Source of the DNA: Salinimicrobium tongyeongense
GTDB taxonomy: Bacteria; Bacteroidota; Bacteroidia; Flavobacteriales; Flavobacteriaceae
NCBI RefSeq assembly: GCF_026109735.1
Contig: NZ_CP069620.1
Span: 62,001 to 126,000 of the forward strand
Reading direction: 5' to 3'
Length of the DNA: 64,000 bases
Shown: positions 714 through 61,743 of the stretch, in pieces
Layout of the letters: every line of letters begins with the position of its first letter
Position numbering within the stretch: position 1 is the first letter of the stretch
Translations under genes and position numbers: made by a program
The notes under the pieces: generated by a model
Database searches by the model: none
What the model was told of the DNA's origin: nothing
Seen by the model: the letters and a program-made list of their open reading frames with translations, nothing else

Positions 714-749
714 TAAAAAAACCGCTTAAAAATGACATTTTAAGCGGTT
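714..749 (-). terminator. Terminator of the GH97 gene, carrying the dispersed near-palindrome
   Basis: The 12-bp arms are 720-731 and 738-749 (AACCGCTTAAAA/TTTTAAGCGGTT), with loop ATGACA. The A-run at 714-721 gives the U-run of the minus transcript. The top of the stem contains AAAATGACATTTT, the core of the dispersed motif described in the findings. Confidence 0.85.
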
Positions 750-770
750 CTTCCGAAGAAATTTTTTCTA

Positions 771-2930
771 CTACAGTTTTCTAAGGCCTCTGGTTTCAGA
801 TTTATCTGCTTCCATGATGCTGATGGCGTATCCACCACCCGCAGCCGAACGCTGAGATAACTTAGACTTGTTGTTCACCACAACCTTCTTAATTTCGTAT
901 GCCTGCGGATTATCTTTGTAATGCGCATTTTTAGCATCTGAATAAATCGTGGCGATATAGGTTTTGCCGGCATCGAGGAAATCAAATTTGATTTTTGAAG
1001 TGCGTGGAGTCTCACCGTTCACATTCCCCACAAACCAGTCATTGGTCCCTTTTTCTTTCCTGGCAATGGTGATATAATCTCCCGGCTCTGCCTCAAGATA
1101 AAGGCTTTTTTGCCAATCCATCCCCACATCTTTTATAAACTGAAATGCATCGGGGAAACGCTCGTAATTTTCGGGAAGATCTGCGGCCATTTGCAGTGGG
1201 GAGTACATGGTAACGTACAAGGCCAACTGATTGGCGATAGTGCTGTTCACCCAGGAATCATTCTCAGGGTTTACCTTACTAATGTCCATTTCGAATATGC
1301 CGGGAGTATAATCCATAGGGCCACCTATCAACCTGGTGAATGGCAAAACGGTTACGTGGTTTGGCTTGGAACCGCCAAAAGCCTGGTACTCGGTACCGCG
1401 GGCAGATTCGTTTGCAATAAGGTTTGGCCAGGTTCGGGCAATTCCCGTAGGCCTCACCGCCTCGTGTGCATTCACCATGATCTCATAATCGGCTGCTTTT
1501 TCAATGGCATATTGATAATGATCTACCAGCCACTGGCTGTAATGGTTCTCCCCTCTTGGTAAAATATCGCCTACATACCCGCTTTTTACAGCATTGTAGC
1601 CGTGGTCTTTCATGAACTGGTATGCAGAATCGAGGTGACGCTCATAATTTCTTACAGAAGAAGAAGTCTCGTGGTGCATGATCATTTCAACACCTTTACT
1701 TTTGGCATAATCGCGTATTTCTTCCAGATCGAAATCGGGATAAGGCGTCATGAAATCAAAAACGTAATCTTTTGAATTTCCAAACCAGTCTTCCCAGCCA
1801 ATGTTCCAGCCCTCTACGAGCACTCCGTCAAAGCCGTGCTTCGCGGCAAAATCAATATACCGTTTTACATTCCTGGTAGTAGCCCCGTGGGTATCGTTGG
1901 GAGTGGCATTTTCAAAATCGGTCTCCCCAAGCTTTACAGCAGGAAAATCGTTGGTGTAGTGCCAGGAACTTTTCCCGGTGATCATTTCCCACCACACACC
2001 TACATATTTCACTGGCCTGATCCAGGAAGTATCGTCAATAGCCACAGGATCATTAAGATTGTAGGTCATTCTTGAAGCCAGGATATCACGGGCATCATCA
2101 CTTACAATAATTGTTCTCCAGGGCGTTTTCCCCGGCGCGATCATATAGGCTTTATTTCCGGTTACATCGGGGGTAAGCCATGATTCAAAGGTCATGTTCT
2201 CATCATCAAGATCGAGGTGCATGGCCGGGTAATCAAGCAAAGCAGCTTCGTGCAGGTTGATATAGAGTCCGTCATCAGTTCGCAGTAAAAGCGAGGTTTG
2301 CACGCCGGTATCCGAAAATGAGGTTTGGGAAAGGTTGTCTGTAATCGAATTGGCCATGAGGCCCCTAATCTCGCTCAATTTTGACTCGGTGTAATCGTAT
2401 TCCTGGGTATCGTAATCTCCCGGAATCCAAAAAGCGGTGTGATCTCCTGTCATGGCAAACTGGGTTTTTTCATCTTCCACGATGAAATGCCCAAGGTTTT
2501 CCTGCTGCGGAAATTCATACCTGAACCCGAGACCATCATTAAATACCCTGAACCTGATAATCATTTCACGACTAGTAGGTTTTTGGTTAAGTACTACGGC
2601 AAGCTCGTTATAGGTATTTTGAATTTCACTTTCTTCCCCCCAAACCGGCTCCCAGCTCTCGTCAAAAGTTGATTCTTCACGTTCAATCACTTCAAAATCA
2701 TTGAGGAGCGAGTTCTCGTCATCTTTAATTTTAAAACCGAGTTTACTCGATTTAACAACAGGTTTGCCTTTATAGGAAAGGCTATATGTGGGAGTACCGT
2801 CTTTAAGCAACTCAAATTGCATTTGCACCTCCCCATTGGGGGAAGCTATTTTTTGAGCTACTGCCAGTGCGGTACAACTTAACCAGAGGCAGGAAAGCAT
2901 TAGTAACTGCTTCATCTTCAATTTTCTCAT
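771..2930 (-). CDS. GH97 alpha-glucosidase (SusB-like), periplasmic
   Basis: The 719-residue length is typical of GH97. A signal peptide ends near residue 26 (ALAVAQ). An N-terminal beta-sandwich (about 27-290) precedes the (beta/alpha)8 catalytic barrel, and a C-terminal beta domain follows. SusB of Bacteroides thetaiotaomicron is an inverting enzyme using three Glu residues spaced 69 and 24 apart. The same spacing is seen here: E421 (HHETS), E490 ([10 protein letters not shown]) and E514 (GTEYQ). This places the protein in the inverting alpha-glucosidase branch rather than the retaining alpha-galactosidase branch. It should release glucose from maltodextrins in the periplasm. It is a single gene about 10 kb from the glucan locus, with its own promoter (2960-2967) and terminator, and probably acts with that locus. 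Confidence 0.93.
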
Positions 2931-2959
2931 TTTATAATATTAATCGTTGATTTGAGAGA

Positions 2960-2985
2960 CAAATATAAAGCTTCTTATATAGAAG
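2960..2985 (-). promoter_or_regulatory. Candidate promoter of the GH97 gene
   Basis: Read on the minus strand, TATATTTG (2967 to 2960) matches the Bacteroidota -7 element TAnnTTTG and lies 30 nt before the GH97 start codon. Just upstream, 2971-2985 is an inverted repeat CTTCT-TATAT-AGAAG that could be an operator. No clear -33 TTTG was seen. Confidence 0.55.
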
Positions 2986-60002: not shown

Positions 60003-60071
60003 AATAGATATTTTAATTTCTTGTTGATTTAATTCCTCTGAAGAAAGAGACTAACTAATAAACTTCATTCT

Positions 60072-60079
60072 CAAAAATA
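60072..60079 (-). promoter_or_regulatory. Candidate -7 element of the GH109 gene
   Basis: TATTTTTG (minus strand, 60079 to 60072) matches TAnnTTTG, 69 nt before the GH109 start, in an A/T-rich leader without other clear signals. Confidence 0.45.
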
Positions 60080-60213
60080 TAAAAAAGTATTAAAATATTC
60101 GATTTTGAAAGTTAAAATTAAATAACAAAAGAAAAAATAAAGAATTTTATTTTTCGTAACCTTATTTTAATATGTTTAATCACTTTTATTGTGCTTTTAA
60201 ATTTTAATTACTC

Positions 60214-61743
60214 TTAATCATCAACAGTTATTTGAAAAGTTGAAGTAGGTGACTCTTCACTATTCATGAGATTCCCCGTGGAATAGGGCTGCCAACCATA
60301 ATACACTGTTTCAGGTTTTTGTGAGGTTTGAATAATTATTTTACTTCCTTCAATAGTAGCTGGCACAGGATGCTTTCCGTTTAATGAAAAACCTTTAACC
60401 ATTTCACCATTTAATGTCATAAGGCCATCTGCAGTATGTTCAAAAGTTATCTTAATCTTTCCTGCAGAATATTTTGCATCAATAGGCAGAGGACCTGAAA
60501 CTTCTATATTACGATCATAATCCTGATGTAAAGCCCAACGAGCAAGTCTCTCCCCCACTACCTTTTTATTTCGCGGATGCACATCATTCTCAGCTCCCAC
60601 ATCACTACTTACAGCCATTCCTCCATAATTCACCTCTTCAAGCAAAAGCCGTTGTAGGTTTCGAAATAACGGCCAATATTGAGATCTATAGTTTAATGTA
60701 TCTATGGAAGAAAGCTGAACCCAGTAAAAAGGCAGTGTTTCTTGCTTCCATTTTTTCCGATAATCTTTTATCAATAACTTTTGCAACTGCGGATATTCAA
60801 AAACCCGTGCAATCTCCTGGGCATTACTTTCCCCCTGATACCATAAAACACCTTTAATGGGCATATTTAAAATTGGCTTAATTCCCGATTCATATATAAA
60901 CCCCGGTTTATAGGCATGGTTAGGCCCTGTCTTCCCAACATGAACGGCAATACCTCCTACATTTTGCCCTCCTCTTTCTCTAATCCAAACCGGTAGTTCA
61001 TCATTATCAAGCCAATTTCCTGAGACTTTTTTATAAAACCTTTGATCTTTTTCTAAAGTTTCTTCCGAAATAAAAGCTTCAATTGGAGCTCCACCTATAG
61101 ACAGATTTATAAGGCCCACCGGAATATTCTCATGCTGAAGGATTTCTTTTCCGAAATAATATCCTATAGCACTTAACTTTGCCACATGCGGCATTCCACT
61201 TTCTTCCCAACTGCCCTCAAAAAAGGCAGTAGATTGTAATTTTTCAAGAGCCTCCTCATTATATTTTTGCGCATAAATACCTTTACCTACGTATTGAGGA
61301 TTATAAAAACGGAGTTGTGGACCAGCAAGCTGCTCTTTTTCACTTTCGAAATGCTCCTCCTGACCTAATGACCACTCCATATTGGACTGACCTGCCAATA
61401 ACCAAACATCTCCAATAAGTACATTAGAATATTCCAAAGAGTCAGATTTTGTATAAATTGATAGAAGCTGAGGGGAGGAACTAGCAGCATGGGCCGGGAA
61501 GTACACCTGCCAGGACGAATCTAATTGTACCTCGACTTCTTCAATTAATGAAGAAAACTTGACCTGCACAGTTTCTCCAGGCAGATATTTCCCCCAAATC
61601 ATCAATGGCTCATCACGCTGCAGCACCATATTATCTGAAAAAATTTTAGGCATTACGATCTGAGCAGTGCCGGATTGCTGGTGTATCAAAAATGCCATTA
61701 TGACAAACATTTTTTTTAAAAGCTCTTTCATGTTGATCATCAT
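60214..61743 (-). CDS. Sialate O-acetylesterase-family (SGNH-type) esterase
   Basis: This 509-residue protein has a signal peptide (about residues 1-28, ending SGTAQ). The SGNH/GDSL blocks are present: catalytic Ser S120 in LLAGQSNMEW, the GVLWYQGESNA block, and DVHPRNK with the catalytic Asp/His. A beta-sandwich lies at each end. The family removes acetyl esters from sialic acids or other acetylated sugars. The adjacent GH33 sialidase gene two genes away supports O-acetyl-sialic acid as substrate, though the family also includes acetylxylan esterases. Confidence 0.88.
   Translation of the reverse strand: MMINMKELLKKMFVIMAFLIHQQSGTAQIVMPKIFSDNMVLQRDEPLMIWGKYLPGETVQVKFSSLIEEVEVQLDSSWQVYFPAHAASSSPQLLSIYTKSDSLEYSNVLIGDVWLLAGQSNMEWSLGQEEHFESEKEQLAGPQLRFYNPQYVGKGIYAQKYNEEALEKLQSTAFFEGSWEESGMPHVAKLSAIGYYFGKEILQHENIPVGLINLSIGGAPIEAFISEETLEKDQRFYKKVSGNWLDNDELPVWIRERGGQNVGGIAVHVGKTGPNHAYKPGFIYESGIKPILNMPIKGVLWYQGESNAQEIARVFEYPQLQKLLIKDYRKKWKQETLPFYWVQLSSIDTLNYRSQYWPLFRNLQRLLLEEVNYGGMAVSSDVGAENDVHPRNKKVVGERLARWALHQDYDRNIEVSGPLPIDAKYSAGKIKITFEHTADGLMTLNGEMVKGFSLNGKHPVPATIEGSKIIIQTSQKPETVYYGWQPYSTGNLMNSEESPTSTFQITVDD

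Follow-up and report, generated by a model that had tools for sequence, protein, structure and literature searches.

The 64,000-bp window analysed here spans positions 62,001–126,000 of the single 3,509,958-bp contig of its source genome (G000), assigned to the genus Salinimicrobium by its nearest named relative, as one window protein is 92% identical to that of Salinimicrobium profundisediminis. A short repeat recurs throughout the window, within as well as between genes. Its core AAAATGNCATTTT has six matches, at 729, 4627, 15377, 35313, 48588 and 52921, compared with a mean of 0.04 in 100 shuffles, none of which reaches six, and the half-site TGTCAAAAATG has seven, compared with a shuffle mean of 0.09. 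A previous sequence-only reading had listed the six cores, with one slip (35323 for 35313), and the seven half-sites at their correct positions, and had rightly stated that both are far more numerous than base composition predicts. Seven of the eight looser copies that it proposed (6530, 8439, 16332, 38156, 51788, 56377 and 61686) coincide with sites that the final model scores at 14 bits or higher, while the eighth, 14339, does not. The AAAATGNCATTTT core at 35313 also scores less than 14 bits. Sites in the window are listed in Table 1.

The repeat was confirmed as real and genome-wide. The exact 17-mer palindrome CAAAAATGNCATTTTTG occurs 140 times in the contig, whereas its reversed control is absent. 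In a 464-kb sample, consisting of the window and 20 evenly spaced stretches of the contig, the best-ranked 11- and 12-mers of the motif are found at about 7 to 49 times the order-5 Markov expectation. Gene calling, the scoring matrix and the Markov controls relied on custom scripts, and the matrix scan merges sites less than 12 bp apart. Upon iterated fitting, the matrix drifted off the palindrome to an asymmetric unit, in which the core TCAAAAATGGC is followed on its 3' side by a first AT-tract (+11 to +14), a spacer and a T-tract (+24 to +27). The tract centres, at about +12.5 and +25.5, are 13 bp apart, and little is conserved beyond about −6 to +28. The sample contains 263 sites of at least 16 bits (approximately 1 per 1.8 kb), versus 12–15 in simulated DNA. 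Of these, 192 lie within called genes (83 along the gene direction and 109 opposite to it, in all six frame classes) and 71 are outside or partly outside; since 9% of the sample is non-coding, sites are threefold enriched between genes.

The second tract also emerges when 132 exact TCAAAAATG words picked without the matrix are averaged, and is therefore not a product of fitting. It is still seen in the 63 of these words that have a non-palindromic right arm, where part of the first tract most often has A. Palindromic copies have a T-run as their first tract, mirroring the core. The 323 sites of at least 14 bits include 135 palindromic, 61 intermediate and 127 non-palindromic copies, with second-tract frequencies of 0.59, 0.69 and 0.63, respectively. 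The palindrome is a subclass of the asymmetric motif formed by the core and the two tracts, and the strict palindrome was rejected as the conserved unit on account of the 127 non-palindromic sites.

Alignments to other genomes of the genus revealed how the sites originate. A score of at least 16 bits is retained by 48 of the 58 G000 sites aligned in G003, 22/38 in G005, 21/34 in G006 and 25/42 in G008, and alignment gaps occur at few of them (4/58, 1/38, 3/34 and 4/42, respectively). Sites arise by substitution, not insertion. Third codon positions match G003 with an identity of 0.93 in the core, 0.85 in tract 1, 0.65 in the spacer, 0.77 in tract 2 and 0.67 in the far flank; for decoy A-runs located off-site, the values are 0.73 in the core span and 0.65–0.66 elsewhere. 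In G005, G006 and G008, core identity is 0.76–0.81 versus 0.62–0.63 in decoys, and values of 0.73–0.80, 0.51–0.56 and 0.65–0.73 are found for tract 1, spacer and tract 2. The conservation footprint covers the core and both tracts, and skips the spacer. Between genes, core identity to G003 is 0.94 versus 0.80 in the flank, and tract 1 is high (0.89) in the other three genomes. Peptide conservation was rejected, given the occupancy of all frame classes and the third-codon footprint, in which the core exceeds decoy A-runs; conservation acts on DNA, as the sequence-only reading had held.

The motif is essentially confined to one genus, Salinimicrobium. Among the 119 genomes searched, the 17-mer was found in 13, i.e., the source genome, 10 of the 11 other genus members (1 to 192 copies), and G040 and G103 (one copy each); G001 has none. 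A stricter layout pattern is matched 73 times in G000, 23 in G005, once in G002 and never in G004, and no more than twice in any of the family's 393 other genomes. Site densities per 100 kb are 57 in G000, 75 in G009, 53 in G003, 42 in both G008 and G006, 35 in G007, 31 in G005, 30 in G011, 20 in G002 and 15 in G010; some of the relatives' values rest on just 19–40 kb, and they may be low estimates because matrix training used G000. In G004, 11 sites of at least 16 bits occur in 197 kb (1.8 ± 1.2 in simulated DNA), a tenth of the G000 density, and G001 has 3 in 152 kb (0.8 simulated). No equivalent motif was found in 200 kb each of G050 (partly masked) and G031, which belong to other genera (4 versus 1 and 0 versus 1 sites at 16 bits). 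A separate motif dialect in G002 was considered and discarded, as refitting yielded the same motif in weaker form and no clear dialect.

All 12 genus genomes were searched for the competence proteins ComEC, DprA and ComM. Except for G001 and G004, they are motif-bearing, and these ten carry open frames for ComEC (648–690 aa), DprA (339–393 aa, the shortest being that of G009, near a contig end) and ComM (512–539 aa). In G004, comEC is reduced to some 0.95 kb spread over three frames, versus about 2 kb for intact genes; dprA matches are split over two frames, and the ComM frame measures 170 aa. The genes adjoining the comEC and dprA remnants are about as long as their G000 counterparts. In G001, a 74% complete genome, neither DprA nor a ComM-grade match was found, and a weak ComEC match received no support from tblastn with the proteins of the ten genomes. 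Few genomes of the family lack comEC: of the 149 that are at least 95% complete, 5 have no ComEC match, and a stop lies inside two of the matches listed. The pilus/type II ATPase family is above cut-off in one of the 12 genus genomes (G003); partial sub-cut-off matches occur in 10, and none in G001. The G003 match (L164, G003:C21:22380-23510) is the sole full-length one in the 12 genomes, and it is possible that it resides on a foreign contig or a mobile element.

The repeat is probably an uptake signal sequence (USS), a “self” tag that would be favoured by the cell-surface DNA-uptake machinery of competent Salinimicrobium. Features of uptake signals found here are the strong over-representation within genes and between them, a pair of AT-rich segments on the 3' side of the core, separated by about one helical turn as in the Pasteurellaceae type, the origin by substitution, and the presence of competence genes where the signal is abundant, G002 and G010 having the genes with fewer sites; in G004, where the motif is nearly absent, comEC, dprA and comM are all broken. 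The abundant DNA-level motif of the sequence-only reading, which had listed uptake among its options, is thus retained, while the near-palindrome that it took as the unit gives way to an asymmetric core with two AT-tracts. It also seems rather likely that we are dealing with an uptake signal of Bacteroidota that would serve a pilus-independent import machine, with a layout of a core and two phased AT-tracts convergent with that of the Haemophilus signal. A putative surface receptor would bind the core, and the AT-tracts would assist entry by bending or opening the DNA. Fragments carrying sites would be taken up and recombined more often, and copies would in this way spread and persist genome-wide. 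Since G000 has no pilus-type ATPase above cut-off, the pilus-independent system known from Riemerella is presumably the one at work.

Transformation of Riemerella, as described in PMC8459023, requires ComEC, DprA and envelope proteins of unknown function and is strongly reduced in mutants of YifB/ComM-type genes; according to the same source, pilus homologues were not detected in the studied competent members of the family. Riemerella columbina, like Salinimicrobium a member of the Flavobacteriaceae, is competent and prefers its own DNA by a signal that is described as unknown (PMC7965970). Its listed top words, unlike the motif reported here, are A/T runs of undecided function, and that account identifies no signal. 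Full-text searches of the open-licence PubMed Central literature, subscription papers and preprints not being covered, found no uptake sequence for Bacteroidota.

Uptake sequences have been described for Pasteurellaceae and Neisseriaceae, in which, in the accounts available, uptake uses pili. In the description of PMC1626085, Pasteurellaceae signals feature a core and two AT-segments 3' of it, 12 bp apart (13 bp in Salinimicrobium), and originate by substitution; there, as here, copies occur within and between genes. Rigidity and bending are predicted for their AT-tracts and seem to aid uptake, and the density of the Haemophilus USS is about 1 per kb (PMC7811141), versus about 1 per 1.8 kb here. 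The weak signal of lineages with inactivated competence genes is a further likeness, as H. ducreyi, in which three such genes are inactivated, has a weak signal (PMC1626085). In contrast with the Haemophilus USS, the Salinimicrobium core is unrelated, the consensus is looser, many copies are palindromic, and a pilus-type ATPase is below cut-off or lacking in 11 of the 12 genomes. The DNA uptake sequence (DUS) of Neisseria is similarly a genus-specific iterated tag, and a link to transformation is a DUS feature. The DUS is 10 bp long and has no sequence likeness to the Salinimicrobium motif, and DUS systems use type IV pili.

Several observations weigh against an uptake signal. Perfect TCAAAAATGGC cores do not outnumber singly mismatched ones (46 and 146, versus 3.0 and 55.3 in simulated DNA), whereas they do in classical signals, an attribute from which H. 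ducreyi is noted to depart (PMC1626085), and classical signals have a tighter consensus. Competence genes are open in G002 and G010, yet the motif is weak in the former (47 sites in 240 kb) and the latter has just 12 sites in 80 kb. Between genes, core identity in G005, G006 and G008 (0.71–0.75) is barely above flank level (0.70–0.71), and tract 2 does not exceed the flank in G005 and G006, on 24 positions only. In a DnaA tree, G001 and then G004 branch at the base of the genus (the fork setting G004 apart has 90/97 support). As both branch early, a single event may underlie their gene contrast, and the motif may have arisen after those splits; support for the gene link comes from one or two early-branching lineages. 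Of the aligned G000 sites, just 3/34 reach 16 bits in G004, 0/8 in G001 and 3/12 in G002. The residual sites of G004 are accordingly not established as relics, and the motif may have been lost there or never gained; one of the three retained sites lies in a gene that we take to be recA. The label “USS-like” was chosen over proven membership because perfect cores are outnumbered by one-mismatch ones, many copies are palindromic and sites are biased towards gaps between converging genes.

A site for a nucleoid-associated or chromosome-organising protein, the gene of which would happen to be missing in G004 and G001, is an unlikely alternative to an uptake signal. DNA-level conservation, AT-tracts and wide spread would suit such a protein, and many binding sites have an equally relaxed consensus, but three broken competence genes in G004 are not predicted, and neither replichore polarity nor a domain pattern is observed. 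The 263 sites show no switch of polarity between contig halves (90 plus and 71 minus left of 1.7 Mb, 57 and 45 to the right), and all 21 stretches are occupied, 19 of them by 8–30 sites. The remaining two, L102 (2 sites) and L103 (3 sites), presumably contain mostly ribosomal-protein genes and many SusC/SusD-like genes, respectively, to judge from protein beginnings. Gaps of less than 100 bp between sites are rare (3 versus 14.7 ± 3.4 expected); spacing is otherwise that of random placement. Chromosome sites of the KOPS, matS and Noc types show replichore polarity or a domain-restricted distribution, unlike the Salinimicrobium motif, and the segregation site suggested by the sequence-only reading fits less well. 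An origin or terminus domain was likewise rejected on distribution. Exact palindromes, 136 of which were located on the contig, are sparse at 0–0.88 Mb of G000, a quarter of the contig (20/136), and this thinning is limited to them, the full motif not being thinned. Sampled GC skew turns at approximately 1.6–1.75 Mb and dnaA starts at base 1 (L089:1-1428), which suggests a replication origin far from dnaA.

A transcription-factor operator or a terminator element appears quite improbable. Palindromic sites are more often intergenic than non-palindromic ones (0.36 versus 0.14), converging gene gaps are the richest (15 sites in 5.8 kb), and some sites form long hairpins followed by T. However, 192 of the 263 sites lie in genes, in both orientations, diverging gaps, which hold promoters, are the poorest (8 in 8.2 kb), and site orientation is mixed in same-direction gaps (24 with and 28 against). 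Since converging gaps are densest and diverging gaps sparsest, some copies may double as terminators.

It is highly improbable that the motif is an iterated palindrome maintained by DNA methylation or repair bias, as proposed by analogy with the cyanobacterial highly iterated palindrome 1 (HIP1). HIP1 is also highly iterated and was first noticed as a palindrome (PMC4390886), the 140 exact palindromes would agree with this option, and among exact-core matches the palindromic right arm is perfect in 19 cases versus 3.4 expected under independence, poor matches being also in excess. Yet HIP1 (GCGATCGC) is methyltransferase-linked, whereas the Salinimicrobium core is asymmetric and accompanied by AT-tracts, and in the non-palindromic sites (127/323) the second tract is as frequent as in palindromic ones. 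A small mobile repeat, also suggested initially, would account for many similar copies inside one genus but is barely conceivable, as relatives align through the sites with few gaps, conservation ends close to the motif, and inserted copies with empty sites in relatives, as of a miniature inverted-repeat transposable element, were not seen.

Other repeats were noticed in the same DNA. The motif TTTCTTCGGAAG / CTTCCGAAGAAA is over-represented in stretches L089–L108, and in the window it is found at 52823–52872 (−) and 31934–31983 (+). It has 454 matches of at least 13 bits versus 134 in simulated DNA, shows a strong orientation bias in genes (296 against the gene direction, 87 with it), and is frequent in G002 as well. 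It could reflect a codon-pair effect or another element, and the CTTCCGAAGAAA repeat was set aside from the main motif because of this coding-strand bias. In G010 (L127, L143–L145), frequent words around AGCCCTTCAGGCT and GTCACCCTGAA, with 14–16 copies in 80 kb versus 0.1–0.3 expected, apparently form a separate interspersed repeat. Two spans of the window, 22808–28722 and 38168–48153, have no site of at least 14 bits. They cover what we take to be SusC/SusD-like gene pairs, and the absence of sites would be explained if these genes were acquired recently or turn over fast.

Table 1 Motif sites in the window. Each span covers −1 to +27 relative to the core; scores are derived from the final matrix.
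Span	Strand	Score (bits)	Location	Feature
726..754	+	22.4	intergenic	
4493..4521	+	19.0	intergenic	
4614..4642	-	29.5	intergenic	palindromic
4741..4769	+	19.5	gene 4733-5686	
6518..6546	-	26.5	intergenic	
8424..8452	-	20.6	intergenic	
10062..10090	-	16.4	gene 9429-10430	
11505..11533	-	17.4	intergenic	
14266..14294	+	21.9	gene 13011-15419	
15061..15089	-	27.4	gene 13011-15419	
15374..15402	+	30.1	gene 13011-15419	
16967..16995	-	18.6	gene 15422-17293	
22779..22807	+	16.5	intergenic	
28723..28751	+	29.3	intergenic	
30522..30550	+	16.1	intergenic	
31274..31302	-	20.8	gene 30584-33175	
31556..31584	-	26.6	gene 30584-33175	first tract is an A-run
33074..33102	-	23.5	gene 30584-33175	
33450..33478	-	25.8	gene 33182-33739	
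37664..37692	+	18.2	gene 37582-38508	
37954..37982	-	17.5	gene 37582-38508	
38139..38167	-	29.8	gene 37582-38508	
48585..48613	+	27.6	gene 48179-49561	
51786..51814	+	25.7	gene 51076-52890	
52918..52946	+	20.4	intergenic	palindromic
53914..53942	+	21.6	gene 53197-56325	
56365..56393	-	26.7	gene 56353-58443	
56633..56661	+	16.5	gene 56353-58443	
61217..61245	+	17.5	gene 60214-61743	
61686..61714	+	24.6	gene 60214-61743	

If the motif is an uptake signal of this kind, the geometry of the AT-tracts would reflect a physical requirement that holds generally for DNA crossing the outer membrane, not the mechanics of pili. Such a tag would provide a bait for the outer-membrane DNA receptor and would make the self-preference of Flavobacteriaceae testable with one short fragment. 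It would also contribute an independently arisen case to the study of how uptake tags evolve.

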